Assembly: GCA_003024785.1 (NCBI GenBank)
Contig: PUQB01000367.1
Coordinates: 186,001-250,000, forward strand
DNA length: 64,000 bases
Direction of reading: 5' to 3'
Origin: Selaginella tamariscina
Lineage: Eukaryota > Streptophyta > Lycopodiopsida > Selaginellales > Selaginellaceae
The position numbers were made by a program, and so were the translations under genes. The notes below the pieces were generated by a model. That model was not told where the DNA came from. It ran no database searches and was given only the letters and a program-made list of their open reading frames with translations. Positions 1,479-46,372 of this stretch are shown here, piece by piece. The stretch's first letter is position 1. Every line of letters begins with the position of its first letter.

Positions 1479-1983
1479 TTCATAACCCTAATTTTATTTT
1501 TTATTATTTAATTTAATTTAGGTTAGGGCTTGGTTGACCTAATAATTATTTATTTTTTCACCAGATTTAGTGACTATTTAGGGTATATGTAAATTTAAAA
1601 TTTTGAAGAGAGTATATATAAAAATTTCACTATATTATATTAAAACCCTTTATTCAGTAAGTTAAATACTTAGGAAACTATAATTATAATTATAGTGTAG
1701 TAATGGTTCTTTCAATCATACATATCAAAATAATTAATCTACATGCATTCCTTCATTTATAATTGTTAAAAAATAATAATTATGAACACAAAATTTCTCT
1801 TATATAATTATTATTTTTCTCTTTTCTCGGACATATTATTTGCTCATTAAATTAAAAGTGCATTATATTTTTATTACTCATTAAAACAATATTATCTTAT
1901 TATTTACAGAATTATTCAAAACAAAATATTCCCGAATCTTCCATGCATTTTGAATATAAGGGGTCAGGGTGTATTAATAAAGA
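1479..1983. other. AT-rich spacer, upstream flank of first duplicated gene
   Basis: There is no gene here. From about 1690 the sequence matches the flank upstream of the second gene copy (from about 3437), including a stretch near 1710 that reads ctttcaatcatacat, so the duplication unit starts in this spacer. Confidence 0.6.
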
Positions 1984-3156
1984 ATGGATTCCAAGCGGCC
2001 TTGGGTATTCTACTCGTGCTGGGCCGCAGGGGAGGACGGCGAGTGTGGATTGTGGGTGTGGCAGCCGTCCGATGAAACCCCCTCAGACCTCAGGTTTGAT
2101 AAATCTGAGTGCGATGACTATTTCTTTGAGCCTCATGTTCACTCAGATCCGAATGAACACAGGCTGCCATATATCAAGCACACAAACTTTGATTTCTATC
2201 CGATTAGCGTCGGATCTGGTCTCATGGTGTTCCATTTCCCAATGATGGAGAAGTTAGTGTTGTCAGATCCAACAAAGGATGGTTCATACAGAGTGCTTCC
2301 CAGCCCAGAGCACATTGATTTATCCTTAATTATGCTGAGGGCTGATGATGATGGTCTTAGACTTAGTCAGAATGTATCACTGAAGGAGCACGAGGATGGA
2401 TTCTCCTTGCTGCTTCCCAAGCGTAAGAAAAAATCCCCTTTTGAGTCTCAGGAAGTGGAGCTGGAAATGGTGGAGATATACGATTCGCGTACAGATTGTT
2501 GGAGGCAGGGTAGTGGTTATCTATTGGGGAGCACACTTGAGAGTGGTGTTACATTCTTTCAGCTTGGTGACCTTGTTCTCGTTAGTGAGGACAGGAAGCG
2601 TGTAGCTACATACGATATAGAGCTTGATACCTGGAAGGAATATGAGTTTTACACCCTCCTGCCTGAGTTAGACCAATTGCAAGAGTTGAGCTACAGAGTT
2701 ATGAACGTTTCCAAGTACACGAGCTCGAGGCTGTTGGTGGTGGCTGTAGCGCGTAAAGGATGGGATGTCAAAGGGGATATCTTGGCATGGAGCGTGGGGC
2801 TGGACTCGCCTCCTGTGCAGTTGTTCAAGCTAGAAACAAATGACCTCACTCTTTCATGGACGGACATTGATGTAGAGGTTGGAGAAGGCTGCATTGCCTT
2901 GTGCTTTGCAGGCCAAACGCATCTCCCTGATGTTGTGTATGACATTGAATCGCGCCAGACGTACTTTGCCCTCAATTCGGAGTGTAGAAGGATGGCGTTG
3001 ATGGCGGTGTTTCGACCCAATACTTGCACATATGGGTTGGACAAGTTTGGTCTTGACAAGCGTGAACAATCTTCTAACACCTGTGCTCCAAGGAAGCGTC
3101 TCAAGGTTGATAATAGCTTTCTAAGCAAAAGTTATTATGCTATTTTCATTTTATGA
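1984..3156 (+). CDS. Unknown protein, beta-propeller/F-box-associated-like, copy 1
   Basis: A 390-residue open frame without introns starts MDSKRPWVFYSCW. I do not recognise the family firmly. Repeated strand-like blocks such as VEIYDSRTDCW, VATYDIELDTWKEYEF and VVYDIESRQTYF resemble the F-box-associated or kelch-type propeller blades of plant F-box proteins, but no F-box is present. A basic patch KRKKKS lies near residue 150 and a second, RKRLK, near 373. The C-terminus differs from copy 2: about 90 bp present there are missing here, so this frame ends in an unrelated tail (SYYAIFIL). It shares a promoter-proximal block with copy 2. Function is unknown; it is probably expressed if intact, but the altered tail is suspicious. 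Confidence 0.6.
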   Translation: MDSKRPWVFYSCWAAGEDGECGLWVWQPSDETPSDLRFDKSECDDYFFEPHVHSDPNEHRLPYIKHTNFDFYPISVGSGLMVFHFPMMEKLVLSDPTKDGSYRVLPSPEHIDLSLIMLRADDDGLRLSQNVSLKEHEDGFSLLLPKRKKKSPFESQEVELEMVEIYDSRTDCWRQGSGYLLGSTLESGVTFFQLGDLVLVSEDRKRVATYDIELDTWKEYEFYTLLPELDQLQELSYRVMNVSKYTSSRLLVVAVARKGWDVKGDILAWSVGLDSPPVQLFKLETNDLTLSWTDIDVEVGEGCIALCFAGQTHLPDVVYDIESRQTYFALNSECRRMALMAVFRPNTCTYGLDKFGLDKREQSSNTCAPRKRLKVDNSFLSKSYYAIFIL

Positions 3157-4192
3157 TAGCTCTTAGTTGTATTGCTTTTTAAAATTATAAAAGTTCTATT
3201 ATAATTTAATTAACTCATAATGGGAGTGGTATTATCATATGTTTGTTTATGCTAAATTTTAATTATAACTTCTAAAAATATTAAATTTATTGTTTATTAT
3301 ATAAAGTTTAAATTAATAGAGAAACGATGTGGAAGAATGATATATGAAACACGTATATTACTTGCTTGACAAAAGTGAGTACCTTACTATTATATGGATC
3401 TTGTTAATAATGTTAAATAAACTTTAATAATAATATAGTGCAATAATAGTTCTTTCAATCATACATATATTTCATCAAAATAATTAGATTACAAGCATTC
3501 CTTTATTTATAATAGTTAGAAAACAACAATTATGAACACAAAATTTTTCTTACATAATCATTATTTTGTTTCTACTAGCTTTACTTGTACATAATTAATT
3601 GTTTCTTTCAAATAATTGTTCTTTATTATTCGTTATATTTAATTACTGATTAAATAATAATAAATTATTATATTATTGTCTTATTATTTAATTACAAAAT
3701 ATAATTTAAGAATTTATTTCCTTGTGATATTAGTATTAAATATATATAATCTACATTGAGTTAAACCTTTTTTATATTTTATACATTTTAAAATTAAAAA
3801 TTAAAATATAATTTTAAAAATTCAATAATAATTTATAATTAATTTGTATTTTATTATATTTAGGTTCATAATGCAACTTATTAAACATATATATCACAAT
3901 ATAATATAATTATTTTAAAAGATATGCCATTTCTTAAATTTGTTACTATACAAAATTTTAACATTTAACATTTTACTAAGCTTTAATTTAAATACTTTTA
4001 ATTAGTATTATTATTTTAAAAGTCAAAATATTATGTTTAAAGTTTTTTAAAATTGGTATATATGTTTAAATATATATAATTTACATTGAGTTCAACCTTT
4101 TTGTATATTCAAAAAAGATATCCAGAATCTTCCAGGGTTGCCCTAACCCCTTGGAGTAATATAAAAAGGGTTAGGGTATATTAATAATAAGG
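3157..4192. other. AT-rich spacer between tandem gene copies
   Basis: No gene is seen. The part from about 3437 to 3570 repeats 1690-1830. The rest is very AT-rich, with runs of TATA and TTAA. Confidence 0.6.
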
Positions 4193-5439
4193 ATGGATTC
4201 CAAGCGGCCTTGGGTATTCTACTCGTGCTGGGTCGCAGGGGATGACGGCGAGTGTGGATCGTGGGTGTGGCAGCCGTCCGATGAAACCCCCTCAAACCTC
4301 AGGTTTGATAAATCTGCCCTATCTGAGTGCCACAAGCGTGTGGCACACGATGATTATTTCAATGAGCATCATGTTCACTCAGATCCGAATGAACACAGGC
4401 TGCCATATATCAAGCACACAAACTATTTTTTCTATCCGGTTAGTGTCGGATCCGGTCTCATGGTGTTCCATTTCCCAACGATGGAGAAGTTAGTGTTGTC
4501 AGATCCAACAAAGGATGGTTCATACAGAGTGCTTCCCAACCCTGATCACATTGATTTATCCTTAATTATGATGAAGGGTCTTGATGATGATGGCCTCAGT
4601 CAGAAAGTATCGATCAAGGAGCACAAGGATGGATTCTCCTTGCTCCTTGCCAAGCGTAAGAAAAAATCCCTTTTTGAGTCTCACCAAGTGGAGCTGGAAA
4701 TGGTGGAGATATACGATTCGCGTACAGATTGTTGGAGGCAAGGTAGTGGTTATCTATTGGGGGGCACACTTGAGAGTGATGTTACATTCTTCCAGCTTGG
4801 TGACCTTCTTCTCGTCAGTGAGGAGAGGAAGCGTGTAGCTACATACGATATAGAGCTTGATACCTGGAAGGAATATGAGTTTTACACCCTCCTGCCTGAG
4901 TTAGACCAAGAGTTGAGCTACAGAGTGCTGAATGTTTCCAAGTACACGAGCTCGAGGCTGTTGGTGGTGGCTGTAGTGTGTAAAGGATGGGATGTCAAAG
5001 GGGATATCTTGGCATGGAGCGTGGGGCTGGACTCGCCTCCTGTGCAGTTTTCAAGCTAGAAACCAACGACCTCACTCTTTCGTCGATGTACATTGATGTA
5101 GAGGTTGGAGAAGGCTGCATTGCCTTGTTCTTTGCAGCCAAAACGCACCTCCCTGATGTTCTGTATGACATTGAATCGCGCCAGACGTACTTTGCCCTCA
5201 ATTCAGAGTGTAGAAAGATGGCGTTGGCGGCGGTGTTTCGACCCAATACGTGCACACATGGGTTAGACAAGTTTGGTCTTGACAAGCGTGAACAGTCTTT
5301 TGACACCGGTCCTGCAAGGAAGCGTCTCAAGGATGATAACGGCAAACCTAAGAAATCGACGTTGTATATCCCTCGTGAACTGGTACCTTTCCCATGGGAT
5401 CCAGCTACCACTACAGTGCTAGAGTTCGACGATTTCTAA
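4193..5439 (+). pseudogene. Unknown propeller-like protein, copy 2 (frameshifted)
   Basis: This is a near-identical tandem duplicate of the gene at 1984. It starts MDSKRPWVFYSCW and has an extra segment LSECHKRVAH near residue 42. One base is missing near 5049: copy 1 reads cagttgttcaag where copy 2 reads cagttttcaag. The frame is therefore split at about residue 285 and resumes in another frame to 5439. The second half keeps the long tail ending LEFDDF, which is probably the ancestral C-terminus that copy 1 lost. So each copy preserves what the other lacks. It could be a real pseudogene or a one-base consensus error, since many genes in this window show similar single-base changes. Confidence 0.65.
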
Positions 5440-5899
5440 GCAACTAGACATCCTAAGTTATTATGCTATCTTTAAATAATTTATTGTGTTGTATTGCATT
5501 TAAAATTATAAATTTATTAGTATAGTTTAATAATAAGAAATTAATTTAAAATAATAATTTTTATATATTAAATTTGAATTTTTAAACATAGAATAGTGTA
5601 CGCATCCAAAATGCACGTTGTAACTAAAGTGGGCATGATACGTGAAAATGGGAATATAAAATAAATTACTAATTAATACTTAAGTTTTAATTATTAATTA
5701 ATCATTTAATTAATATGTAATTAAGCCTTAAATATTAATTAATTAATTAATTAATCCTTCAATAACCTTACTTAGTAAGGAATATTCCTAAAATATCTTA
5801 GAATATTCATATTATTCTAAAAATAGTTTACAATAATGAAGAAATACTATCAAACATAATTACAAATGAAATCATTTTCTTATCAACATGTTAATTTTT
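5440..5899. other. AT-rich spacer
   Basis: I see no gene. There is a TTAA-rich stretch with (ATTA)n near 5730-5755. Confidence 0.5.
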
Positions 5900-7021
5900 T
5901 TATAAATACTTTCTTTCTATCATACAAAGAAATCTTTTCATTTTGTCTAAATCATCACTCTCCGGATTAATCAAATCATTTTGGTCAATATCTTGATGTT
6001 GTTGCCACCACTTAACACTCTCACGAATGCAATTGGGAGTTGCCATCCTTGTTAATACATAAGATGTGATAAGAGAAGGTCTGCATAAAGGCTCATCTAA
6101 AAACTGACGTTCCTTAAGAATAATATTATAAAGCGCCCGGTTGCTATCCTTCATTTTATAAAATTCAATATCACGAGAAAGAAAAGCTTCAGGAAATGTA
6201 TGATACGGTGGATACTGCTCACAAAAATTTTCGAGATTCTTCTTTCTGAGGCACGTATCCAAGTAGTTCACTAGCTCATCCATGATATCATATCAGAATA
6301 TGGATCGAAAGTGATTGGATGAATACAAGCAATGTTTTGGTTGAGCATAGCCTTCTGAGGAGAGTCGTCTACTACTAAGATATGTGCATTCTTCGTTATC
6401 CTTAAGCGACTGATCTCCCCATGAGTCCCAATTATTCTTTCATTCTTGAAGAAGTATGGCTTGCTTTCCTTTCTTATATTGTGAAATTCGAGAGGTTTAT
6501 GACACATTCGCTGGTCAAAAATCCAATCTTTACGAATCACCTCTTCTGCAACACTACAATGTTTCTTAAGTAAACTCAACAGCGGTGTTAAGTTATGAAT
6601 CTGCATGCATGACCAAATCCCCACAAGCGCACCCATCTCCTTAAGCTTTTGAAAGAGACGATCCAACCCTGGACGAAAAATAATATCATATCGAAATTTA
6701 CCATGACAAGGAATGAAATCTCCTTGTTTGATTTCTGTTTTTCTATCCTCGGGCCTTTGTCGATGAAGCAGAACACCATTGACATCCAACAACACAATAT
6801 GGCCATGAGTAACATGAGATAGCGTTGCCTCTTGAATACTTTGCAAATCACTTGTTTGCTCCCTTTCACATTTAATCCGTTGCCACTATTTCGTTGCCTA
6901 TCCCTTCATCATTTAATTGTACATCATCCTTACAAGATTCAGATATTGCATGCGCTGAAGAAATTGATTTCGGAACTGAAGCCAATAAAAATGATGATGC
7001 AAAAACTGAAGTGGCCCCCAT
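5900..7021 (-). pseudogene. FCP1/SCP-type HAD phosphatase, frame-broken
   Basis: The core has NIF/CTD-phosphatase marks: VLLDVNGVLLHR (first catalytic motif, about 6768-6803; the usual DxDG reads DVNG), RPGLDRLFQKLKEMG and GIWSCM in the middle, and ILVVDDSPQKA (about 6350-6385) as the last acidic motif. The family removes phosphate from Ser/Thr, classically on the RNA polymerase II tail. The second Asp of the nucleophile motif is Asn, which would abolish the usual acid/base role. The frame shifts by one base near 6280, where an ~125-residue C-terminal part (DELVNYLDTCLRKK) continues to 5900. It shifts again near 6870, upstream of which a Ser-rich N-terminal piece starts at 7021 (MGATSVFASSF). 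Either a decayed phosphatase or a gene carrying two indel errors; the DVNG change favours decay. Confidence 0.6.
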
Positions 7022-7346
7022 GGTAACGATGTTTTGAGCTGCATATTATCCATTTACTGCATGAACTCTGTCATTCTGACATGTGGCACAAGAAATTGTC
7101 GCCAAACCCCTCTCTTACCTCATGGCAATGCTGAAAATCCATGTTCTCAATTATTTCATTACATCTGCAAAATGATAATTAGCTGACCTTAAAATTATCA
7201 AGGTATATTATTTACCTTGTTAATGTGTGACCCATGTTTGAACTAAAAGCTTCATTAATCCTTGAGAATTTATTTTCTGTACAAATATAAAAGAAATATA
7301 CAAAAATGCCTTATGTTACACTCATTTACAACTATTCATCACTCTA
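7022..7346. other. Spacer
   Basis: No gene is evident. The right end is probably the 3' untranslated region of the ParB-like gene. Confidence 0.4.
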
Positions 7347-10300
7347 TCAATTCATTATCAATTCTTCTTCGCTATTACCTTCTGAGTGAGGCGAAGAAGG
7401 TCTAAGCCGCTTGTGAGATGGTTCAAGATCTTCTGCATCTTCTATTGATGTTTCCATGGGTCCTGGAGTGTGCGAATGTTCTGTACTCCTCGAGATAACT
7501 TCCGGTCTAATATCTGATTGAAGTTCGTTCTCAGACTCCGAGATTGAACCAGATTCACCTTCAGAGCTATCGCACTTATCTGGAGGGAACTTTCTCAAAT
7601 ACGCCTTTATGGATCGTTGGGGTACTCAGTTGAGACCCAATCTATCCACTTGTTCAGGTCCTCAACCATGGTCTTATCCTTCAACGGCAAACATGTATGC
7701 CGAAGGTAACACTCCTTCAAGACGGACCCCCTAGTGCAGTAGTCAAAAACCCACGCATCACTGTGAGGACCCCTGATCAAGTTGACGATGCTCCGTGCCG
7801 CTTGACTTGTAATGTTTGGATAACGTACATTGCCGAATACGTCACTCATACCTATCGGTGTATCGGATGGAGGTTCAGGGCCGTTGGAGTGCAAACAGAT
7901 GCCTGGCCAGTCATTTGGAAGCTTGAAATTGTTTGGCGCATTCCTAACAACCAAGTGAACAACAGTATCAATGCACTTGGGATTAGCATCGTTCATATAA
8001 AATCCTGTCCAACGATGTCTATTCTTCTTGGCGAAGGCGAAGGCAAAAGTATCGGTGACATGAGCAAGAATCAAGAAATAAATACCTGAAAAAGTAGGTA
8101 TCAGTGAAGAGCGCAAGCATGAATTCAATAATAAATACCTTCTATGTATATGCTTGCACGGCTAAGTTTCTCCACCAGATCCTCTAGTGCCCTATCTGTC
8201 GAAAGATTTTTTGACACCCGCCGATCCATCACGAACAATTGAAACGGTTTCCTACAAGCAGTGATGTTACCCCATAAAGTCTCCGAATCTAACAACAAAC
8301 ATCTGTAGGGCTTGTCGTGATTCGTAGCATCCTCCTTTATAAGGTTCAATTCGGTTCTCCGCTGCTGAAGGACTGCCATAAGAGAAGGCGTCATCCCAAT
8401 GTTCTCCTTTTTGGCGTTGGCGTGCAATAGATTCTTGCCTAGATCTTCCGATTGGTTCACCCATTCGACAAGCATATCATCGTTCGTCACATGCAAATAT
8501 TTGCTGACCTCTTCATATGTTGAAGTCGAGGTCCAACCCAGTTTGTGGCAGTGTATTCCCAACCACTCCTTGAAATGCCTGACCGTCTTCAACTCCATTG
8601 CCTTGAGATGAAAAGGAGAGGTTGGGCTGCTGTTATTAATTTGTAGTTTGCCATCGATCACCAAATCAGCCAAGACTTCCATCTCCTCCATCGTTGTTCC
8701 ATTTAAAGGCTTCAACCATGTGAGCTTGAAATCGTTGTCTACATCCTTTGTAGATTGAACAGACTTAGCCTTCGGCGTCTTACTGGGTTTCTTTGCAGAC
8801 TTTTCTGAGGGCTCCCCTTCACTTGTCTGCTTCTTCTTCAGTGTTCCTTTTGAAAAGGATTCCATAATCCCCAACCATTTGGCAAAGATCCTATCTTCGG
8901 GGCAAGAAATCAACATCATCAGAAATGATGTTTCCTTCCCGCCCACCTGGGCAAAATCAACTGCTGCAATTTCTTCAACTCTCTGAGGAAAAAGACAGAT
9001 TAATATACCGGCGAGATAAATCCCGCCCAAACAATTTGCTTACCCGGTATTCCGCAGATTGTGTATTCCCTGCGGTAGCTCTTTGTGGTCGCTGAAGAGA
9101 TTCCCACACGGCTCGCGTGTGTTTAAACTTCTCCCATATTTTGCTGTTGTAGTGGTTGGTGTCGGCAGCGTCCCATTCCGCCGATAACTTATGGTACTGC
9201 TCGATTGTGAGATTCGGCTTAGCTAAAAACGCCGATCTTTTTGTCAGCTTCTCACGGGTATGCTCGGAAAGTTTTGTTGCCATCGTTCCTTTGTTGTGTT
9301 CATCGAGAAGTCGTTGGGCTGCCGTTATTGTGTGCTGGCCACTAATGATGTAGTACTTGATAGATCTTTTATTCTCCGTCTGAATCTTCATGAGTTGTTC
9401 TGGTGTTGTGATCCAGACTTTGTCAGCACCCTTCCTTCTTTCATAGTATGGACACAAAACAGCATTATGTGGAACGGTATAAGAATTGTCGTCCTTCATC
9501 TTCTCTCCATGAGCTCAGCTACACGTTCCTGGTTGAGTGGCCTGTAATTGAAGTTTGGGTTGACGCTGCAATATTTAACCCTACAAGGATAAATCTTATC
9601 ATCCAACATCATTTCCTTGTGACTTATTGCAGCATGAGATGCCACAGGTGCAGCTGACAAAACGATTGATGATTTTCTTTTGCGATCCGAATCAACATGT
9701 GTGATCCCCGACTGCAGCTGTTCTAGTGTTCTCGGCACACTCTTCCAGCTCCCGAAGCTTCCTAAGCAAATTGAACGTGATCTGTAGAGAACCTGAGACC
9801 GAGCCACCTTCTCAATCTCCCTTATGATGTCGCTGTGTTCTTCTTCAATGTGAAGAGGGAAGATTGCTCCACTTGCTGATTTTCTGTATTGTGAAGCAAT
9901 ATCTCCTGACAATACACCTACTCGATGAGTCTGAAGATCTTCGAAGTAGACATCCAGATGGATCCCCTCCATAGATGGGCTTTCGTTGAGTTGAAGAAGA
10001 ACTCCAAGGTCAACATCATTAGTGAACACGTGAACGTCATTATCCACAAGTCGACAAAACCACCCGAGATTAATGTTGTAACTGACGACCTCTGGATCCG
10101 AGAACGTGACATTGGATGGAACAAGGCATATCTGTCGAGCATCGTCCAATCTGGGTTCGCAGCCTGCTTTCGGGTGCTTGACTAGCGAATCTACTTTCCA
10201 TTGTTTTGCTTGTCCATGAGATGTGACAGAGGTTAATTTGACAGCAACCATGGTTGCTCCAATGCGCTTCCCATTTATCTTAAAATATGGCCAAGTTGAT

Positions 10301-10486
10301 TCCAGAATCCCCCTGCCCATCTCTTCTCCTGCTCTTGTCTTTAATGTCACCTCAATTCCACATCTGAATACAAAAATGATTAGTTCAAGTATCCGAGTAT
10401 AACAGATTTTATTTTAATTCTTACCCAGAATTTGACGACGACTCCATACTAATGACTCGATCTCCTTGTTTGATCAAATCGTCCTT
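7347..10486 (-). CDS. ParB-like protein with methyltransferase-like C-terminal part
   Basis: A multi-exon gene reading right to left; predicted exons are 10425-10486 (5' end not settled), 9044-10364, 8142-8982 and about 7608-8087, with GT-AG junctions. Near 9510-9550 NYRPLNQERVAEL, and near 9305-9350 IISGQHTITAAQRLL, match the two halves of the ParB/Srx fold. A Lys-rich linker (KKKQTSEGEPSEKSAKKPSK) follows near 8770-8860. The last large exon has VFDYCTRGS (about 7725-7755) after a GN..YPN...A stretch, in the order of the FxGxG side of beta-class N6/N4 DNA methyltransferases. The catalytic DPPY-type motif is not seen, so activity is doubtful. An acidic Ser/Glu tail (7347-7598) lies in another frame, one base off, and the frame also slips one base near 9497. 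ParB-methyltransferase fusions are known from phages and plasmids; in a plant this is unusual. Confidence 0.55.
8983..9043 (-). repeat. Short intron carrying an array-type palindrome
   Basis: A 61-bp GT-AG intron of the ParB-like gene contains GGCGAGATAAATCCCGCC at about 9010-9028. The identical degenerate form occurs once inside the palindrome array near 12000. This ties the gene body to the arrays by sequence. Confidence 0.7.
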
Positions 10487-10591
10487 CTGCAAAATAATAC
10501 ACTATAAATATAAATTATATAAAAACGCACACACACTTGTATAAACCCGAATATACAAAAATAATACACAGAGAGAAGTAGACGTAATTAA

Positions 10592-10674
10592 CTGTCCGAA
10601 GCTCACATTTGTGTTAGTGCAAAAGAAAGATAACATTTCGTTTTAGAACCACCACAAATGTGAGCTCTGGACAG
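10592..10674. repeat. Hairpin: 22-bp inverted repeat
   Basis: 10592-10613 and 10653-10674 are reverse complements with two adjacent mismatches and a 39-base loop. It sits just upstream of the ParB-like gene's first recognised exon. It could be a small foldback element or a structured leader. Confidence 0.7.
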
Positions 10675-10779
10675 TTTTACATAGATTCCTAGCTTTTACT
10701 CGAAATATTATGATAAGATGATAAAAGTAAATAAAATGAGATATGCAACTTATATATACTAATACACATATATATTCAC

Positions 10780-12190
10780 ATGGAAGGTGCGGCGGGATTA
10801 ATCTCGCCACCCCTTCAATGCCTCCTGAAAGAGTGGGCGGGATTAATCTCGCCACCTTTCTGGAGGCCTTGAACGGGAGTGCGGAATTAATCTTGCCACC
10901 CTTCTCGGTCTCAGAGAGAACTGGGCAGGATTTATTTCTCACACCCCTTCAGTGACTCCAGAAAGGAGGCGGGATTAATCTCGCCCACCATGTAAGGGAT
11001 GGTTAAATGAATTTCCCCACCCTTCCCAGTTCTCTCCATTGGTATGTTGTAAACCTTCTACGTCTCAGACAGAAACGTTTGGGATTGGTCCGACTCACCA
11101 ATGGAGAAAAAAGGAAGGGTGGCGGGATTCATTCCTCCAACAGGCATTGAAGACTCGGCGGGATTAATCCCGCCGCCCAGGGCCTTCACTCGGTCCCTAT
11201 GCGGCGGGATTAATCCCGCCGGACGCCAATTCCCTGCGCGGAATCGGGCGGGATTAATCCCGCCGCCTAGGCACTTCAGGCAGGCCAATGGCGGCGGGAT
11301 AATCCCGCCGATTCGAGGGGCATGCGGGATTAATCCCGCCTCCCAGGCCCTTCACGGCCTCGGCGGGATTAATCCCGCCGAACGCCAAATGCCCTGCGCG
11401 AAGGCATGCGTACGCGGCGGGATTAATCCGCCCACCATGTAAGGGATGGTGAAATTAATCCCACACCCTTCTCGGTTCCCTCCATTGGTATTTTGTAAAC
11501 CTTCTCCGTCTCAGACAGAGTTAGTCGGGATTGATTCAACATACCAATGGGGTAATGAAGGTTCGGAGATTAATCTCGCCACCGGGTAATGAAGGTTCGG
11601 AGGCTAATCCCGCCGCCCTCTCGTAAATCATGCGCTCACACATATATATTGGCTGCGGCATTTTTGAACAGGGATGGGTGGGGGCGGATTAATCCCGCCG
11701 CCCAGGGAATTCACGCAGGACATGAACGGCGGGATTAATCCCGCCGCCCTCCGCGAAGGGCATGAGCGTGGGGCCGGATTAATCCCGGCGTTCATGTCCT
11801 GCGTGAATTCCCTGGGCGGCGGGATTAATCCCGCCGCTCTACGACAAACCGAAGAGCGGCGGGATTAATCCCGCGCCCATGGCCTGCGTGAGGGGCCTCG
11901 GCGGCGGGATTAATCCCGCCGCCCATTCCCTGTAAATGCCCTGCGCGGAATCCGGCGGATTAATCCCGCTTATTAGAACCTTCACACAGGCCATTGCCGG
12001 CGAGATAAATCCCGCCGCATTCCGCGCAGGGCATGGATGAGCGGCGGGATTAATCCCGCCGCCGAGGCCTTCACGCAGGCCATGGGCGGCGGATTAATCC
12101 CGCCGCCATGGCCCCAACCATATAGCGGCGGGATTAATCCCGCCGCCGAGGCTATAAACCTATAGCGGCGGGATTAATCCCGCCGCTCGA
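10780..12190. repeat. Palindrome array 1 (GGCGGGATTAATCCCGCC)
   Basis: About 19 good copies and 5 degraded ones (10789-11000 have TCTCGCC or TTGCC on one side) of an 18-bp perfect palindrome, often extended by GC/GC to longer symmetry. Spacers are 20-40 bp and share words such as ttcacgcagg and ccatgccctgcgcg. A ~110-bp block (from caccatgtaaggga to gtctcagacag) occurs twice, near 10987 and 11442, a higher-order repeat of about 455 bp. Inside, 11702-11727 and 11790-11815 form a perfect inverted repeat of about 26 bp around another palindrome. The left end lies about 300 bp upstream of the ParB-like gene. Confidence 0.9.
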
Positions 12191-12888
12191 GGGGCTTAGC
12201 GAGATAAAAACACACACATATAATATAGTGTGTGTGTATTATATATATATATGTATGTATGTATGTATGTATAGGAGTGTACGTGTGTGTGCAAGAGATA
12301 GATAAATAAATATAAATTATACAGTACTGGTACACCTAATATATGTGTTACATAGGTATATATATGTGTGTATATGTATATCGTGTGTATGCGTGTGAGC
12401 GAAACAAATAAAATCATACAGATAACAAAACACACAACATAATATATACACAGGAGTGTGCGTGTGTGTGCGAAAGATAAAACTAATAAATAAATAAATT
12501 CCGTAGATAAACACACACATATATATGTGTGTAATAGATATATAATCTATAGAGAAAGAGAGAGAGTCTGTGAATATATAAGCATATATATAAACTAGTG
12601 TTGTATGTATGTATATATGTATATAGTATATATATATGTGTATATGTATATTGTGTGTATGCGTGTGTGAGCGAAACAAATAAAATCATACAGATAAACA
12701 AACACACACACACAACATATACATACACAGGAGTGTGCGTGTGTGTGCGAGAGATAAAATAAATAAATAAATAAATTATACAGAAAAACACACACATATA
12801 TATATGTGTGTATATAGATATATAACCCATATGAATTATAAGCATATAATAACACTAGTGTTGTTATACTATTTGTTAATATGCATTG

Positions 12889-12920
<32 letters not shown>

Positions 12921-12933
12921 GTGTGTGTGTGTG

Positions 12934-12964
<31 letters not shown>

Positions 12965-13030
12965 GCAGTGCCGTGTGTGGGAGAGATATCAATCAAAAAA
13001 AAATTTACAGATACTGGTACAACATAATAT

Positions 13031-13080
<50 letters not shown>

Positions 13081-13143
13081 GCAGTGCGCGTGTGTGGGAG
13101 AGATAGATCAATAAAAAAAAATTTACAGATACTAGTACACATA

Positions 13144-13189
<46 letters not shown>

Positions 13190-13480
13190 AAAGCAAGATC
13201 AATAAAAAAAATTTACAGATACTGGTACATAATATATGTATGTTATATGTATATAGGTATATATATATATATGTGTATATGTATATCGTGTGTATGCGTG
13301 TGTGAGCGAAACAAATAAAATCATACAGATAAACAAACACACACCACACACACATATACATACACAAGAGTGTGGGTGTGTGTGCCGAGAGATAAAACTA
13401 ATAAAAAATTATACGCACACTCTATACATATTACATACATACACACACACACAAAAGATCTCACCTGTGTGCACAGCGCG
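12190..13480. repeat. Compound microsatellite/minisatellite block
   Basis: (TG)n, (TA)n and ATGT tracts alternate with short unique words, and whole units of roughly 200-280 bp recur: the words gagtgtgcgtgtgtgtgcgagagata, cgaaacaaataaaatcatacagata and ttacagatactggtac appear several times. Open frames across it only reflect the repeat. I see no gene. Confidence 0.85.
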
Positions 13481-14400
13481 CCGCCGATTTCACAGCCGCC
13501 GCCTCTTGAAACCTAAGAATATACCTAAACCCTAAAGGAATTAAATATATATATCAACCCTAATAGAATATTCTTCTGAGAATATACTAAACCCTAAAAA
13601 GAATAAAAATAGATTTGCCCTAAACGAATATTCTTTCATTAATTATTAGCGCGTGCGTGTGCTGGGTGTATCACATACACCTCAAAAATATAAATCATGC
13701 AGGGATTTAACATGTGTGTGTCCATGAGAGTGTTAAAGTTTCATGTGTATCAATACATACATACACATTGCATATATTAATCACAAAATATATACATACA
13801 CACGTGTATACACACAGACATACACACATATTACATGGGTTTAGGGTTTAGGTTTAGGGTTTTGGATTTAGGATGGATCATGCATGGTGTGTATGTATGA
13901 GAGAAGAGAGAGTGTTGAAAAAATTATTTTTGTACACATTGCATATATTAGTACACATATATACTTACACATTTATACACAGATATACATACATAGTAAT
14001 TATGGATCATGCATGGTGTGTATTATACACACAGACATACATACATATTAGTACATAATATAGAGAGACCGAGTACATATTATAGATCATGCATGGTGTG
14101 TATGTTGAGAGAAGAGAGACAGTACATATTAACATGGATCATGCATGGTGTGTATGTATGAGAGAAGACAGAAGTACACATATTACATACAGAGTACACA
14201 TATATACATGCACACGTGTATACACACAGACATACATATATATACATGAGTAAATTCATTGTGTTTACATATTAGGGTTTAGGTTTGCTCCCAACAAGCT
14301 TAATATAAATATTACACATGTAAATTCAATGTGTTACATACAGTCACACAGATGAGTACATATATCATACATGTGTTGAACATGATGTTTTCAATAAGAA
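13480..14400. repeat. AT/CA-rich block with CATGCATG minisatellite and telomere-like motif
   Basis: A unit around gatcatgcatggtgtgtatg recurs near 13875, 14002, 14085 and 14137. A short TTTAGGG-type run (about 13836-13870) looks like an interstitial plant telomere motif. No gene is seen. Confidence 0.7.
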
Positions 14401-14599
14401 GCAACTTATTTCTTCAGTTTGGTTTAGGGTTGTGCATGTGTGTGCATATGTGTTTTTTGTAAGTTCTTGTAATGCGTGTGTAAATTTATGATTGTGTTAT
14501 ATATGTGTGCAAAACAAACATCGAATAATTAAGAAAATAAAATTAATAAACACACTAGGAACATTTTTAAATTATACATAAATATATATTTTATCTAAT

Positions 14600-15210
14600 A
14601 TATAGCCATATATAGTTTTAATATATATATTAATTTAATATTGATAAAAAGGTTTAACATTGAAATATTCTTGAAATAAAAGAAATTAATTGAAAAATCC
14701 CATTAATATATACAAATGTAAATTAAGTACTCAAATAATTAACTAAAATAATCATCATAATCATGTTTAATATTGGAATATTCTTGAATAATAAGAAAAT
14801 AATAAAGAATATCCCATTAATATAAAGAAGATTAATTACTCAAGTAATTAAGGAAATGATATTAATATATATTATTAAACTATATATGACTATATATTAA
14901 GATAAAATGATGTATTATATGTATAATTTAAAATATGTTCATAGTGTGTATTAATTTAATATTGATAATAAGGTTTAACACATGAATATTTTTGAAATAA
15001 TAACAAATTAATTGAGAAAATCCCATTAATATACAAATGGTAGAATAATTACTGTAATAATTAAGAACAAGACTAATTTAATTATGATAATCAGGTTTAA
15101 TATTAGAATATTCTTCAAATATTAATAAAATATTAAAGAATATCCCATTGATACTAGGAAATGAAAACTAAATACTCGAGTAATTAAGAAAATAATAATA
15201 TAAACAGACT
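14600..15210. repeat. Four diverged AT-rich repeat units
   Basis: The sequence words ggtttaa.attg.aatattcttgaa, then aatcccattaatata, then tactcaagtaattaa occur in this order at about 14650, 14764, 14970 and 15088. Spacing is uneven (about 115-205 bp), so these are old tandem copies. No gene is seen up to 15860 apart from a doubtful 62-codon minus frame at 15442-15630. Confidence 0.6.
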
Positions 15211-15864
15211 ATGAATATATTTTAAATGATACATAATAATATCAATTTATTTATTGTATAAGTATATATTTATATATATATAATATAAATATACTTGAAT
15301 ACTAAGAATGTAGAATATAGTCTAAAATTCGTAATATTAAACAGCTTGAATCACTTGAATAACATTAAATGCAATTTTAAAATACTCATTGGAACTGGAG
15401 AGTATATATGTCAGAGTGTCGGATATTTGTGTCAACTCATCTTAAATTTTATTTTCTGTTCTTTTTAAAAAAATTTGAATTTCGACATATGTATTGTCGG
15501 TCTGACATGTAAAATTTGAAAATGCATTTAATTTCTCACTCAAATTCAGATCTGGTTCTTTCTCCGCAAGGGTTTCTTCATTTCTGTATTTTTCACTCTT
15601 TAGATCTTCTTTTTTCTTCATAGTGATCATCTCAGGAGCGAGATTAAATTGGGTGCTATTCTTTATAGGAAAGCACGGCGCCTTCAGTGCTGTTTACAAG
15701 TAAAGTATTATAAACAAATTTAAAATACTTATTAAGATTCACTCCTTACATTCTCTCTTAAAATTACAATTTAGGGGTTTAGAAATGCATTAGGATTATA
15801 ATATATTCCATTAGGATTTATCATGTTTAAATATCCTTTTAACTTAATATTCTAGGTTAACCGG

Positions 15865-16715
15865 GCCGGCGGGATTAATTCGGCCATTTCTTTTTCGCCT
15901 CTTTGAAAAGTGCGGGATTAATCCCGCCACCATCTCCGGGCAATGCTTCTCCGCCACTGAAAAAGAGTGGCCGGGATTAATCCCGTCGATAACCTTCTCA
16001 ACTGATGAAGAGTTACCAGAATTTATTAGAAAGAGTTGTCGGCGGGATTAATCCCGCCAACCATTTTAGGAGGCAGGGAAGGGGTGGCGGGATTAATCTC
16101 GCCACCACTTCCCTGTTTTAAAGATTTGGGGACAGGATTTATCCCGAGATCTCTTTGAAATCATAGTTTTGGAGAGAGTTATGTGCGGGTTTAATCCCGC
16201 CACCCATTCCCCGTCGTAAGAATTGTGGGCGGGATTAATCCCGCCTTGGACTCCCTCCGACAAGGAAGAGCCGGCGGGATTAATCCCGCCGCCTCTTCCT
16301 CCGACGAGGAGGGAGTCCGGCGGGATTAATCCCGCCGGACTCTCCCGGGAGGAGAGTCGGCGGGATTAATCCCGCCGGACTCCCCCCGAGGAGAGCGGCG
16401 GGATTAATCCCGCCGGCTCTTCCTTGTCGGAGGGAGTCCAAGGCGGGATTAATCCCGCCGACTCTCTCGGGGTTGAGTCGGCGGGATTAATCCCGCCGGA
16501 CTCCCTTCCTCGGGAGAGAGTCGGCGGGATTAATCCCGCCGGACTCCCCCCGAGGAGGAAGAGGCGGCGGGATTAATCCCGCCGGCTCTTCCTTGTCGGA
16601 GGGAGTCCAAGGCGGGATTAATCCCGCCGACTCTCTCCGAAGGGGTTGAGTCGGCGGCGGGATTAATCCCGCCGACCGTTCCTCGTCGGAGGGATTCGTG
16701 GGCGGGATTAATCCC
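15865..16715. repeat. Palindrome array 2, regular ~43-bp spacing
   Basis: About 19 copies of the 18-bp palindrome seen in array 1; the last dozen (from about 16227) are perfect and start at roughly 16227, 16272, 16319, 16362, 16397, 16441, 16480, 16523, 16567, 16610, 16655 and 16700, a period near 43 bp. Many spacers are themselves symmetric (gactctcccgggaggagagtc) or occur in both orientations (ggactccctccgacaaggaa and its complement). The array ends about 160 bp before the DUF7869 coding start, so it occupies that gene's promoter. Confidence 0.93.
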
Positions 16716-16872
16716 GCCCATCAGTTGTATTAATCAAACATGAGATATTATCTCTAAACATAATTATGTATTATTGCATATGCATATTATTAAGTAACCG
16801 TAATTCAGATTTCTTAAAAATATTGCATAAACAGATATCATAAATAATACAATTATTTATGTGCAGGACAAT

Positions 16873-19800
16873 ATGTTTAATACTGGAGATAAAGTATGTC
16901 TTCTTCGGAACAACGAGATAGTTGGCACTGGAACTGTGGAAGTTCGAGATAATAATGCATCATGTCACAATATTTCCCAAGGATCTTGTGTGTACGTATG
17001 GGTGAACACCATTTTCAAGCATGTTGAGGTTCTGGGAATGGAATTTGAGGAGGGTTCTCCTGTATTGTGGAATTTGGATGAAGTCAAGGCTGACACAAAA
17101 TATGCAGAGTCACAAACAAATAGTAGCACGAGTTTACCAGATGATGGCTTGCCTGCTGTAATGGATGAGGTGATTCTCTTTCTTCGTGAGATTGAAGTCG
17201 GAAGAGGCATCATCACAGCTATAAATCCAATGGAAGCAGTGTCAGAAGAGAAACTAGGGTCCGACTTCGTGGGTGTAGTTGTGACAGAGGTTTCACCTAA
17301 TGGCACATTGTATCCTGGATCCCTCGTGAGGTGGCGAACATCTGAATTAAGACGGCAAGATGGTTCAACATATTCTGGGTTGGATTTCAATAATAACAAC
17401 CCGGAAGAACAACTCATATTTGAAGAGGTTCCTTGCATTGGTCCTATTGTAAGAAAAAGGCGATTCATGGGTTGTAGATCTTCCCCTGCAAGTTTCAGCA
17501 AGAGGGTAAAGATGGATCCTACATCTTCCGAAAGTGTTACGAGCATTTCCACGATTGACTGTTGCAAGAAGAAGTGTTGTCAGATGGCAGACCGGAATGA
17601 AATTACCCAATGTAGACATGTCTTTCGTATGCTCACCCAAAAGCAAAGGCATGAGTTTGTATATGCTGCACTAACTGGGTGTATTGATGGAATGGCCTCG
17701 GACACAGGTTATCAGAGTACATCCATGGTATTTAATAAGGTGGCCATCTGCTTCAAAGCTTGGTACAGTATATACGGGATCCCAAAGACCACGTTCTACC
17801 GTCGGAGGGATGAGTGGCTAGATGGAGCGCGAACCTCAGTTCATGGGAACACTGGCTTGGTCAAAACCCGCTCTCACATCATGGCAGCCATAGAGATACT
17901 CAAGGCTTTTGTGGAAGCAAATGCAGACAGGATGCCTCACAAATGCCGAACCACAAATGCAGGGGTCAGGGAAAATCTCAAGGTTTTACCTTCAATCTAC
18001 ACTCAATTGAAACTGTGTGAACATGTGAACAAGTGCCTCAGTTTGATGGGGCTCCAAGCAATCTGCACTGGTACCTTCAACAACATATGGAATACTCATT
18101 TTAAGGATGTGGAGATTGCAAAACACTCTAGCTTTTCTAAGTGTGACACTTGTACATCATTGAAGGCTGCAGAGGCTTGTGCAAAAACCTTGGTGGAGAT
18201 CACTACCATTCAAAGGAAGATGGAGGCCCACATGATTGCACAACAAACTTGTCGGTCTCAGTACTATGCACACCGCATGCTTTCTGTGTCACGCCCATCA
18301 GAGTACCTGTGCTTGATCCATGACAAGATGGATCATTCAAAGACCAGCATTCCAAAGCTCTTTGCAACACCAAAGTGCCTTGGAAATGTCATGAAACTTC
18401 CGATTTCTTTAACAGGTGTGCTAACACATGGACACGGTTGTGAGTCATATGGACACTTTTCACTTCCACATTGGTCTAGCGACTCCAATTTCACTATTGG
18501 GTCGTTAGCCATGTGTTTCAGAAACCTTGAAGCCCACTCACAGACAAGTCCTATCAGTGATCTCAAAGTGAAGAAACAACACCTTCAACCTTTACATAAT
18601 GCTCTCATGAACACGTCTGCACTTGAGGCTACTTGGGAATATGAGAGGCATTGTCAGCAACCTGCACAAAAAACAGATGGCCCTGTTGAGAGTTCAGGTT
18701 CAGTGGAGGGATCTAGCTCAAATAGTGTACATGTGTCCTCAACATCAAATAAGCTTCCTCGTCATTTGCTTTTACAGATGGATAATTGTGCAGGCGAGAA
18801 CAAAAATAGGTAAATCATTTTACTTAAGGGTTTCTCAAGCTCATACTTACTTTTATTTTCTAGATATGTGCTAGCATACTTGTCAATGCTTGTTGCCAAA
18901 GGTGTGTTTGAAACAATCACGCTCAGTTTCCTTATGGTTGGTCACACTCATGAAGATATTGATGCGTTCTTCAGCAAGGTCTCCAACTCTACAAAAAGGA
19001 CAAGTGCACTTACCTTACCGCATATGATGAATCTTTTTGAAAATTGCATCTCCAAAAAAAGTTGTGCTTTGCTTGTGACTGAGGTGCCAGACTTCAAAAA
19101 ATTTCTCAAGGAGTATATAAAAGAAGGGAGTGATTCTTTAGTTGGTCACCTTGTGCCGCTACAATTCTTTTTCTCCATACGAGATGGTATACCTATTATG
19201 CAGTACAAGTTACGGCCATCAGAGCAGGAGTGGTTACCGAAAGAGGGCTTAATGCTCTTCAAAAGTGGAGAGGATGGAAAGCCACTTCTCCCAGAAGGAC
19301 AACCAGACCCTATTCCATTGAGTGCCCAGCTCAAGGAACAAGAGGTTATTATTGATGGCATCAAAAAATATGTGGCATGGGTTCAAAAATCGATGCCAAA
19401 GAATTCTGATAAGGCAACTGGTTACTCAGAACTATATAAGCATGTGGTCAACTATTGGGAGACTGTTGTTCGAGAGTTGGAAGGGCCTACTGTCACAAGT
19501 ACAGAATTGCAACACCCTTTCTGGCCTAAAACAAGGTGGCGAGAGGAGATTGAAATGACATCACTGAGCACAGACGACATAGAAGCCAGTAGTGATGTGG
19601 AAGTGCAAACCCCACACTTTGTTGGACAAAGGAACCAAAAACCTAAAGCATACTTTGATTGCTGCAAGGATCTTCAAAAACTAATGATGGTTCTCATTAC
19701 TCCAGATGCGTCATATAATCAGCCTATTTGGATGGGTCAAATTATCGACACACCTGAAGTAATCACAAAAAATAGTATTGTTAAGGTTGCATGGTTCAAA

Positions 19801-19992
19801 CCACAAAAAAGGCGACACGAGAAGGAGAGCGAAAGATATAATGGATGCCTAGAGAAAACATGGTCTCCCAATCAAAAAGACCCAGCATGTTTTATAAATG
19901 TTAAATCCATTCGATATGGGTGGATGTCAAGAAGCGTTGATAAAGTCACGATTAACAAAACTGCAAGGGAATGTATGTTTTCTGAAGCTTAA
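16873..19992 (+). CDS. DUF7869-type transposase-like protein
   Basis: Two exons, 16873-18809 and 18864-19992, joined over a 54-bp GT-AG intron; about 1,020 residues. The start is the first ATG; a gcag just before 16867 could be an acceptor, so an upstream exon is possible. The N-terminus has two Gly/Val-rich units (GDKVCLL..., DEVILFL...GRGIITAI) like those on other plant transposon proteins. CCKKKCCQ near residue 233 may bind metal. The DUF7869 core carries HDKMDHSKT (D about 484), QMDNCAGENKNR (D about 637) and GHTHEDIDAFF (672-682), an Asp/Asp/Glu-Asp layout suggestive of an RNase H-fold nuclease; that role is inference. A C-terminal region reads like a reader or BAH-type fold. Unlike nearby host genes, no single-base breaks are seen over 3 kb. 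It diverges from the ParB-like gene. Confidence 0.75.
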
Positions 19993-22900
19993 AGCAATTA
20001 CAAAATTATAAAATATCATATATTTAATATTCATAATTATTATAAACTCTTTAATAATAGTACCAAATTGTATACTTAACTATATAAATTTAAAAAATGA
20101 TATGGAAGATTGACTATATTATTATAGGATTTTATATATATTATTACTACTACAAATTTTTAATTAATAATGTTATATTTAAATATTAATATTTTAATAA
20201 CAACATCAATATTTATATAATGTACCTCTTATGCTCTTCCTTAATTGTTATATTAGGCAATATATTATATAATTTAATACATTCTACTTTTATAATGTTA
20301 TTAATTTTTGTTCAATGAATGCTATAATTTATTAAAGGGTAGAATACAAAATAGAATATTCTAAAGAATATTCTCTTTTCAAACATATATTCTAAAGAAT
20401 ATTCCTTTAATATTAGAAAATGCTAATTAAATAGCTAAAATTGCTAATTATTAGGAAATGGGACTATAGCCATGCCCATTTTAGTTACAACTTGCATCAA
20501 ACATAAACATATTCAAATTAGTTGCATACAACAGTATCAGCTTTTAAATTTAATTTCTTAATAAACTTAGTGTACTAATAAATAATTTTCCAACTAACAA
20601 AGAACCACACATACACTCATGATATATTCTTAAGAATATTTGTTTCAACAAATGGTTTAACCCTTGTTTTGACTGCATCGTGTATGCCAAAGTGAAAATA
20701 TTAACTTGTTATCTTATCGATTATTATTCAATATTAATAATGTCACTAAAATAATACTTAAATTCCGAAATAAAAAGTTTTGAAATTGTCTAACAATAAT
20801 AACGAGTCTTTCTCCGTAAAACAATGCTAGTGAGATTCAATTAGACCCACCTTTGAATGATCATAGCATAATGATTATGAACTCATCAACATAACGACTA
20901 TGCAAACTTGGTTTAAGAATCTAATGAACTAAGACCTTACCTCTCTACCTTAAAGTCCCATGGTGTTGTAGAGGAACTTGGGCTTGAATTTGTTTGTAAT
21001 AGTTAGATGTGTTGTGTGAATTTAGTCATTTGCTACACTTGATCTTAACAAGCTTGTGATTTTCCACCATCAATCACTGATTTTCACTATTAACTATTGA
21101 TTTTTTTGTTGCAAATTTTTAAACTCTAAAGGTCTTATTGAATGATTTTTACTATTATTTAAACGAGACTAAAACACGATTAATGAAAAAAGGATTTTGA
21201 TTTAAATTGTCATGGCTGACTCCAATAATAAAATAATATGAATGAATCAAAAGAAAATATATTAATTAAATAGTATTATAAAGATTTGCCAACAACTAAT
21301 GTTAGATCAAACCTTAGCCTTAGCCTCTTATATATATTAGGACCTTCGCATTCTTTGACCACTATTATTTGAATATCAACCATAAAAAACTCCTAATATA
21401 TTTCAAAAGAATATTCTAATGTTAGCATATTCTAAAAATAACATCAGCATTAAATTAATATATTCTGGTTGTTCATGACCCTCACACATGTTTATTACCA
21501 TTTTCCATAGGGTTTTGTAAGGAACTAAGTTGAGAATAACGTTAAACCAAAAGACCTTATGTACTATAAGGAAAACCAATTTTAACTTTAGTTATCCTTA
21601 TTTATATATGTATCCTTATCATGGATTTGATTAATTTTAATGATTTTTATCTGTATCTGTGTGATGCAGTTAGATAATCACATGTTCATAGTAAGGATTC
21701 CCATTTAACAAGTCATGCACATGGCACCATGTAAAAACTTTGACATATGTCAACGTTTTAAGACTAAGAATTTGTAAGGAGCTTGAAAATTTTCTTTTTA
21801 CTATCATAATTTTTACCACAATTGTTCTTTATTTAAAAGGTTGATTGTTATTATATGTTCATTAATACATTTGAGTGTTTAATATCAGTTTAATCGAATA
21901 TCTTTAAGAAATTTTAAGTGAAATTAAAACTTACCTTTAGAAAATTTTCTTCTTGTTTTTGGTGTCCCAATTAAATTTATAATTAGTTTCAGTGAGTTTA
22001 AATGTTAAATATAGTTTAGAAACACTTAATTTCACATTCTAAACCTCTTGAGTTGGGTTTAAGGGTAGATGGATTGTTAAGTTAGACTCACCAACCATTA
22101 GTGCATAAGAATGGCCAACTCACTTAAAAAATAAGAAAACAAAGGGACCTCCATCTTGGCATAAGCAAAGTACACCCTTTGTGCCACCCAACCTTCCGGC
22201 ATGTAGAGGTTTTAGTGTTGGCGAATCCACATTACTTTGCTCATGTACACTATATTTATGGGGGTTAAATAGGTTATTTTGTTTGTAACCCATTCGTACA
22301 CATGTGAAGTATTGTTGAAGTACATGTTCCAGTAGTTTAAAGGTTAAGACATGTCTTTAGTCTCCTTCATGCCAACTTAAGAATAACACTAAAACCTTAA
22401 CATACATGTTTTTTTACTATGTTTTAAGGGTTCGTAAAGAGGAGTTTTAGGATTGGCATTGCAAACCACATTCATGGCATCGTGTTTAACTCTTGTGTAT
22501 AACGGATTATATTGATGACCTATGTCTCAAGAAATGGTGTTACATGTATATGTGATACTAGAATGGATTCCAATCTTTAGGGTCATGCAATAGGTTTAAT
22601 GCCAAAGGGTTAAAGATCTTGACAAGGAGACACGCTTGAATTAAGTTGTTAAGCCTTGGGTATTTATTAGGTCTTATAACTACCCTTGGCTAAGAATGTT
22701 CTTAGTAAGGGTATGTGAACATATTCAAAGGTTAAACAACTTAAGTTCGTTAACAAATTTCTCTTGTAAAACACTATTATGCTTACTAAGTATTAACCTT
22801 AATACTAGGATATAGTTTAGCCTCGGTAAACCCTTAGGGTTTAGTTGTGCCCTATAGGGTTGTACATGTGATTCATGAAGGTGTTAAGATAATGTATTAT

Positions 22901-25719: not shown

Positions 25720-27141
25720 TCAAATCGCGACGACTTGACAAGTGACAAGCTCAACACGTCCGAAGCTCTTGGCAGCCACGAGAGCCAATCATTCATAAAG
25801 GAACGATTACTGGACGAAGCAGATCCACCGTCAACTGGTGAAGTCCCTCTAATCTGAGCCCTCAGTACAACCACCCTGTTACTAGCATCCTTGCTAACCA
25901 CATGTAGTTGATCACGTACAACACTAACAAGTACGGTGACTCTGAATCCGTCACGAAATTGAGAGAGAGAGGTACCTTCTTAACCACGACCCTCCACACG
26001 TCACGGTCGAAGTCATAAACCTTGATAGTCCCGTCCATAGTACTCGTGGGATCCAACGAATACAAGGAGCCGTTCACTACAACACTGAGCTTCATACCGG
26101 CTTGCCTTGCAGGCCATCCCTCGCCCATCCCTCGGGGCATCTCGCTCCATTCCCTGTCTATCGGGTTGTAAACCTCGCCTCCGATATCCATAAAGAACGG
26201 CCAAGAGTATAAGCTCTGTGGAACCCATAGCTTCCCACGGAACGCAGCCAAGCCGGTTGCAATCGGTTTGAGAATGTCCGTCACAAATGCACCGGGCAGT
26301 ACCTGAGCTCCAATGAACGGCATGCTGGGGATATCCGTCCAGGTACCTGTTACTGGATCGTAAACCTCAGCACTCTGTAACGGGGTTAACCCGTTTCGAC
26401 CCCGGTTAACCCCGCCTACGACGTAGAGCTTCCCGTCTAACAAACCAGTCTTGCAGTATGCCCTCTGTGTACCCATCGGACCTGCTTGACTCCATGAGTT
26501 TTTCCGTGGATCATACTTCCACACAGAGGATGTAGCCGAGGAGTTTAGAAAGCCGCCCAGAACATATAAGCACCCGTCAAGTGCCGCTGCTGTACAGCCG
26601 AAGAAGGGTGTTTGCTCTGTGTTATCTTTTCTTCTAAAGACGGACCTGACAAACCCGAGTAGTCCTGAGCCAGGTCTAGGAGTCCGAGAAGAACACCCGG
26701 CATGGATGGTAACCTAGTCCATTGCGAAGACAGCGGGTCCATTGCAAACCATGTCAACTGATCGTCCTTGTCTTTCAGGAGCACATAAACCACTGCTCAC
26801 AAACACTTAACTCGTGTCGGAGAGTGTAAATCTCATCACCGTTCAGTACTTGGTTCCATAAAGAACATACCATTCTCATGAAGGGATGTGCGGATCGACA
26901 CACTCTAGACAGGATCTGCATCGAGAGCTCATCAGGCAAACCGGGGATTAAAGACTGCCATTGTTGTTCTATCCTCTGTTTCTTGTGCTGGTGTCCCGAA
27001 CAGTCCCCACAACGGGCACAGAGAGGCCGCCATTGTCTCTTGTGTTGGAGCTCCAGGAACCGCCCATCGCATATCTGCCTGAATGCCGATATAATAGGAT
27101 TACCCGATTGCTGGAGGGAGGGGGAATGCAGCGACCTCCAT
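25720..27141 (-). pseudogene. F-box/kelch-repeat protein (At1g22040 type), several one-base shifts
   Basis: The F-box is at about 26880-26970 (SLIPGLPDELSMQILSRV). Kelch blades follow: WTRLPSMPG, FFGCTAAALDGCLYVLGGF, KLYVVGGVNRGRNGL, SAEVYDPVTGTW, LWVPQSLYSWPFF, GGEVYNPIDREW, and the end RVELVTCQVVAI at the stop 25720-25722. The order and wording follow Arabidopsis At1g22040. Such proteins are substrate receptors of SCF ubiquitin ligases. The frame changes by one base about four times (near 26795, 26650, 25930 and 25770), yet the conserved text continues after each. One lies in a G run (cagtggttt where one more G restores the family reading). Either a recent pseudogene or a consensus with length errors. 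The start at 27141 is weak because the frame shifts soon after it. Confidence 0.75.
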
Positions 27142-45670: not shown

Positions 45671-46372
45671 TGTCACAACCTGATACAGGATACAGGATTC
45701 CGGATACAGGATACAGGATGCAGGATGTAGGATACAGGATACGGGTTACAGGATATGCCTGCAGAATATTCCTATAGGATATACCTATAGGATATTCCTA
45801 TAGGATATGCCTATAGGATATGCTACAGGATATGCCTAGAGGATAAGGGACACTATTCTTAGCTCATGACTAGATTAGACTCATGACTAGATTAGCTTGG
45901 AGTTGTGAGCATAAAAGCTCCGACCTAATTGTTGTACAATCAGTTACTATCAACACCAGTCTTTTTACGATTATTCTTGTTCTTGTTTGTCTTGTTCTTG
46001 TCTTACTCTTTGCCTCCTGCTCCTGTCTTGTTCCCGGATCCTGTCTTGTTCCTGTCTTGTTCCTGGATCCGGTCCTGCGCCTTCCTGTTTTGCTCCCGGA
46101 TCCTATCCTGATCCGGTCCTGTTCTTGTCTCGTTCCTGAATCCTGTCCTACTCCTGATTCCTGAGTTCCTAGTTCCTATTTTGCTATCCAGCTCCTTGTC
46201 TTGCTATCCTGCTCCAGTTCCTATCCTGCTCCTTGTCCTACTCCTAAGTTCCTAGTTCCTATCCTGCTCCATTCCAATCCTTTCCTTGTCCTACTCCTTG
46301 TCCGGCTCTGAGTCAAGCCTTCTTGTTCTCAGAATCCTACTCTCTTCCTTGTTCCTGGATCGTGGCTTGACA
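45671..46372 (+). repeat. 5' LTR of element A
   Basis: Starts with GGATACAGG and CTATAGGATAT short repeats. Then a TATA-like CATAAAAG lies at 45910, AGTTACTATCAA at 45942-45953, and a C/T-rich TTCCTATCCTGCTCC repeat tail. The 12-base word is the exact complement of the sequence just after the LTR (46375-46386). Confidence 0.85.

Follow-up and report, generated by a model that had tools for sequence, protein, structure and literature searches.

We analysed a 64,000-nucleotide stretch of the Selaginella tamariscina genome (GenBank assembly GCA_003024785.1, contig PUQB01000367.1, positions 186,001–250,000; hereafter the window), which contains a large mobile element. Two of its genes, one called ParB-like and the other encoding a DUF7869 protein, are transcribed outward, and each has an array of the 18-bp palindrome GGCGGGATTAATCCCGCC upstream of it. 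Both the direction of the genes and the placement of the arrays had been proposed in a preliminary description of the locus and are borne out here, with 40 near-copies of the palindrome in the window (≤3 mismatches), 23 of them exact, against 0.00 expected in 100 dinucleotide shuffles. The same description placed a mobile unit at 7347–19992. A mobile unit is indeed present, whereas these limits are too short on both sides, the element spanning 5611–20497 (14,887 bp). Its parts and flanks are as follows:

5607–5610: target site duplication CAAA, left
5611–5637, plus strand: left terminal inverted repeat ATGCACGTTGTAACTAAAGTGGGCATG, a border common to unrelated loci
5900–6846, minus strand: NIF/FCP1-like HAD phosphatase gene (PF03031, E 2.4e-10), in two frames in this copy
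7347–10362, minus strand: ParB-like gene, exons ~10362–9031, 8991–8128 and 8089–7610, with an acidic tail open reading frame to 7347; borders by inspection
9010–9027, plus strand: single inexact palindrome within a ParB-like intron
10791–12184: palindrome array 1, 21 sites, 10 exact
12185–15867: AT-rich middle with microsatellites
15868–16718: palindrome array 2, 18 sites, 13 exact
16873–18809, plus strand: first coding exon of the predicted DUF7869 transposase, with a likely 3′ splice site before it; borders by inspection
18864–19992, plus strand: last exon of the predicted DUF7869 transposase; borders by inspection
20471–20497, minus strand: right terminal inverted repeat, reverse complement ATGCAAGTTGTAACTAAAATGGGCATG, a border common to unrelated loci
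20498–20501: target site duplication CAAA, right

From the ParB-like exon that ends at 10362 it is ~430 bp upstream to the start of array 1; the distance is ~300 bp if measured from a probable short 5′ exon of that gene that, by inspection, ends near 10490. Array 2 stops 155 bp short of the first DUF7869 ATG (16873). The arrays adjoin two divergent promoters and are at least 3.8 kb from the ends of the element (5.2–6.6 kb and 3.8–4.6 kb in the window). The single palindrome in the ParB-like intron is found at the same place in all eight aligned copies. The interval from array 1 to the ParB-like gene contains an inverted repeat, AGCTCACATTTGTG...CACAAATGTGAGCT (10600–10666), which shows small changes among eight aligned copies, and in mid-element there are GGGTTTA repeats like those of plant telomeres (13837–13872).

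Homology with copies elsewhere in the genome breaks off sharply at 5608–5615 and 20496–20497. The terminal inverted repeats are 27 bp long, match each other at 25 of 27 positions and give the element the ends ATGCA...TGCAT; full-length members of the family measure ~13.6–14.9 kb. All fully read copies come from contig C1 and the window. Eight two-ended copies were read (W, the window copy, and A, D, E, F1, F2, G and H) at seven independent loci, F1 and F2 having both flanks in common as parts of a duplicated segment. The 4-bp target duplication is exact at four of the seven loci (W, CAAA; D, ATGT; F, TTAT; G, ATAA). That of copy E is one mismatch off (AAAT/TAAT), that of copy A fits only if one terminal base was lost, and none was seen at copy H, the left end of which is mutated. 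Copy G has inserted into an exon of a ParB-like gene that is older and divergent. Once the element and one ATAA are taken out, a local alignment to the window's ParB-like gene crosses the junction with gaps, including one of 22 bases three bases beyond it; the comparison reads the empty site from a relative rather than from an empty allele. In C1:897001–937000 (L038–L041), two copies of the element with the same flanks on both sides lie ~18.7 kb apart; this duplicated segment has single-base indels between its halves, maybe through assembly error.

The order NIF/FCP1-like gene, ParB-like gene, array 1, array 2, DUF7869 gene is found in seven of the eight two-ended copies. The eighth, D, is unreadable there, with 2,500 N (C1:315001–317500), perhaps an assembly gap, at the position expected for array 1 and the remainder of the ParB-like gene. 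We dropped the idea that D is an internal-deletion copy without array 1 because the run of N lies exactly at that point, and D is counted neither for nor against the layout.

Across the genome searched (300.7 Mb, 1,391 contigs), the exact palindrome occurs 27,128 times (reversed control, 0) and the left terminal repeat 3,129 times (≤2 mismatches; control, 0). Because an unmutated right end differs from the left repeat at two positions and is included in the 3,129, the count corresponds to something in the region of 1,500 two-ended copies, a figure that takes in short and broken ones. Shared borders, inverted ends, 4-bp duplications, the nested insertion and the 3,129 terminal repeats strongly support the earlier proposal of one large mobile or selfish unit. 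The element is mobile, has spread recently and encodes a predicted DDD transposase.

By the preliminary description, arrays that occur widely apart from both genes, or the two genes in unrelated settings without palindromes, would count against a single unit. A check of C1:1–2,083,358 did not show this. The stretches read there hold exactly 100 exact palindromes, the number listed, and the distance from each to a ParB-like or DUF7869 match is at most 5 kb (at most 2 kb for 97 of them and 1 kb for 72). All of those listed can be assigned to a single transposon family or to relatives of it. Divergent relatives at C1:2054336–2059136, where there are also broken gene pieces, and at C1:2070676–2072485 carry palindromes that are spaced differently; the arrays may predate the current expansion of the family. 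Exon 1 of the DUF7869 gene gave 7,343 first-look candidates, the best 68 of which are all full length, 99–100% identical and stop-free, a selection that gives no estimate of the intact fraction; the remaining candidates may include relatives without arrays. The terminal repeats listed extend as far as contig C213. Of the seven scored DUF7869 copies within that range, five have an exact left repeat 11.1–11.4 kb away in the correct orientation, and those on C85 and C91 have no left repeat among the matches listed, which were of exact repeats only.

DUF7869 (PF25273), the only family matched in both exon open reading frames (Pfam, E ≤ 1), spans the two exons across a short intron (18810–18863). 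Five aspartates are invariant in 57 of 57 aligned homologues, and the structure is predicted to have an RNase H fold. These observations support the nuclease-like aspartate pattern remarked on earlier and sharpen it, in that the protein looks like a DDD transposase. This is a suggested function for a domain of unknown function that occurs from bryophytes to sea urchins. The named homologues, taken by themselves, would suggest a bryophyte host. No DUF7869 protein was found in phages, a comparison of the last exon with PDB sequences found none, and no paper in the literature collection searched names the domain. Variants in the DUF7869 gene fall on codon positions 1/2/3 as 17/10/30 when shared between copies and 38/42/31 when copy-specific.

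The ParB-like gene of the window lies in more than one frame (breaks at 9496–9499 and near 7607), and copies L033, L037 and L046 read through the break at 9496–9499. Many frame shifts resembling small indels are present in this gene, even in a copy with a perfect transposase exon 1; they reflect post-insertion decay or assembly error, which cannot be told apart here. Variants common to at least two copies number 28/27/66 on codon positions 1/2/3 (p 5e-6), with the noncoding middle as control (31/40/26, p 0.21), and an excess at position 3 is seen among copy-specific variants as well (13/13/26, p 0.04). The p-values are rough, since variants that copies share have been inherited and the F1 and F2 copies enter as two rows. 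Because the shared variants concentrate on codon position 3, the ParB-like gene is, judged by this pattern, a real gene under protein-level constraint. Its assignment to ParB found no support. The protein matched no family in Pfam, NCBIfam or PHROGs and no sequence in the PDB, a homologue search gave nothing at E ≤ 0.001, and the identity was equally unsupported by tblastn in phages, a search of 5.8 billion proteins and structure prediction, where the model is unusable (predicted local distance difference test, pLDDT, 36.8). By eye, the motif NPNFNYRPL...ISGQHTITAAQRL and the helix–strand order of this poor model recall the ParB N-terminal domain. From the sequence comparisons, the product appears to be an orphan protein. 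The third gene, NIF/FCP1-like, lies inside the left end of the element and has matches in seven of the eight other locus groups or copies whose read sequence extends this far. A search for homologues of its product returned none at E ≤ 0.001, and its variants are too few for a codon-position comparison (2/3/3).

The reading we favour, to which we give a probability of about 0.6, is that of a giant, recently spread DNA transposon with terminal inverted repeats, probably of the Sola superfamily, that carries a DUF7869 DDD transposase, an orphan protein and a NIF/FCP1-like phosphatase. The element is unusual in its internal, promoter-proximal palindrome arrays, and our best guess is that these are binding sites of the element's own protein. 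Some observations weigh against the earlier proposal of a single unit. Only one half of the element is present in the 10 kb fetched at locus B (ParB-like gene, array 1 and NIF/FCP1-like gene) and at locus C (array 2 and DUF7869 gene), and a divergent DUF7869 fragment at C1:325664–326169, 53% identical at best, has no palindrome in the surrounding 5 kb.

We compared 335 palindrome sites (≤4 mismatches, window and L031–L050), which were picked by similarity, inflating the contrast between sites and spacers. The core GATTAATC is best conserved, at 1.65–1.97 bits per position versus 1.17–1.84 in the arms, and the spacers of these sites, so chosen, carry little shared information. The commonest single change is C to T in the middle of CCC (48 of 335 sites). 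Spacing peaks at 44–45 bp; 36, 40–41, 43 and 46 bp are also common, and with several such spacings we do not claim helical phasing. Copies W, E and H are 99.6–99.9% identical in exon 1, yet have 21, 25 and 22 sites in array 1 and 18, 14 and 15 in array 2. Near-identical copies that differ in site number show that the arrays turn over rapidly. The spacers match one another in both orientations and, at aligned positions in young copies, the palindromes are not significantly more conserved than the spacers. Viral and prokaryotic contigs yielded no case of two exact palindromes 10–40 bp apart.

The fast change in unit number and the lack of excess conservation at aligned sites would both suit passive arrays, in which a palindromic seed was multiplied by unequal exchange and gene conversion and does nothing but persist, or acts only as hairpin DNA. 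We consider this possible, if doubtful: the 18-mer stays recognisable across units whereas the spacers share little, a difference inflated by picking sites by similarity, and both genes are preceded by an array in all two-ended copies other than the unreadable D. The promoter-proximal location of the arrays would also be expected if host transcription-factor sites had been captured for both promoters, for example for S phase, each site holding two inverted E2F-like CCCGCC half-sites or a palindromic, homeodomain-like TTAATCC core. GGCGGGA/TCCCGCC in the palindrome resembles the E2F consensus, and TTAATCC resembles WOX/K50-type sites. The E2F consensus has TTT where the palindrome has AAT, which counts against E2F. 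Moreover, conservation strongest in the core and a commonest change that falls within CCC are unlike what E2F binding would predict, so that the pattern of tolerated changes weakens the E2F reading, and we regard capture of host sites as unlikely.

A parS-like role, in which a ParB-type protein nucleates on the palindromes for partition, spreading or pairing and so clusters copies or keeps an extrachromosomal form, is suggested by the arrayed palindromic sites and by the ParB-reminiscent motif and helix–strand order. It is a good deal less probable, given that Pfam, NCBIfam, PHROGs, PDB sequences and the protein search gave no ParB match, that the model reached a pLDDT of only 36.8 and that the Pfam matches of the eight open reading frames scanned include no ParA-type family. 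The arginine of the ParB CTP (cytidine triphosphate) motif is likewise not seen by eye. Least probable of the possibilities weighed here is that a ParB-folded orphan loads onto the ~25–40 promoter-proximal palindromes of each copy and spreads or bridges, turning the 27,128 sites into one self-made network that would control expression, pairing or mobilisation.

Under the favoured transposon reading, the DUF7869 transposase would cut the ATGCA...TGCAT ends and generate the AT-rich 4-bp duplications. An element protein, perhaps through a weak TNP1-like N-terminal domain, would bind the arrays as a dimer and regulate both divergent genes; matches to TNP1, a domain of CACTA elements (PF03017), are weak, with E 0.023 (P0005) and 0.098 (window protein), both below the cut-off. 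Since every site reads the same on both strands, recombination among the palindromes could delete or flip segments, which would fit the mix of direct and inverted units. If a protein does bind the palindrome, the family will have supplied its host genome with tens of thousands of identical binding sites and would be a clear test case for self-regulation in large transposons.

Elsewhere in the window, 13/26-bp near-palindromic units (for example TATCCTATAGGCATATCCTGTAGGAA) and 17- to 37-bp repeats occur at 45682–53242 and 58400–58834. These arrays adjoin Ty3/gypsy-type gag, reverse transcriptase, integrase and chromodomain open reading frames, and represent retrotransposons with repeat arrays of their own. 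Left of the element, the open reading frames at 1981–3153 and 4175–5436 are apparent tandem paralogues with near-identical stretches at ~3000 and 5220, and a scan of the two found no Pfam match at E ≤ 0.01. A Kelch-repeat open reading frame lies on the minus strand at 25865–26713.

Among the matches listed in literature searches that covered ParB in bryophyte transposons, palindromes in moss or liverwort transposons, and Sola elements with ParB, NIF or palindromes, no title or abstract described an element of this kind. The element recalls bacterial ParABS systems in its clustered palindromes adjoining a gene with a motif that, by eye, is ParB-reminiscent. It differs from them in being a eukaryotic transposon with no ParB family match and no ParA found. 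Sola elements are described, in the excerpts consulted, as having a DDD transposase, 4-bp duplications, inverted repeats of 11–1124 bp and sizes to >15 kb, and as occurring in Physcomitrella (PMC10741241, PMC9033089); the excerpt on Sola2 reports 4-bp duplications that are AT-rich, together with additional genes acquired by capture (PMC3627910). Because its DDD acidic triad, AT-rich 4-bp duplications, terminal inverted repeats and size fit, our element is probably of the Sola superfamily, likened by these described features and not by transposase homology. Its internal palindrome arrays, orphan ParB-like protein and NIF-like phosphatase set it apart, none being mentioned in those excerpts. The excerpt consulted on CACTA elements (En/Spm, Tgmt*) describes large plant elements in which an element protein binds numerous short repeats (PMC2613891), and the principle of the arrays is similar. 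Membership of CACTA is excluded by the ATGCA ends, by a duplication of 4 bp and not 3 bp, and by the lack of a tnp2-type transposase. Moreover, whereas the repeats of CACTA elements are subterminal, the arrays described here are internal, at least 3.8 kb from either end.
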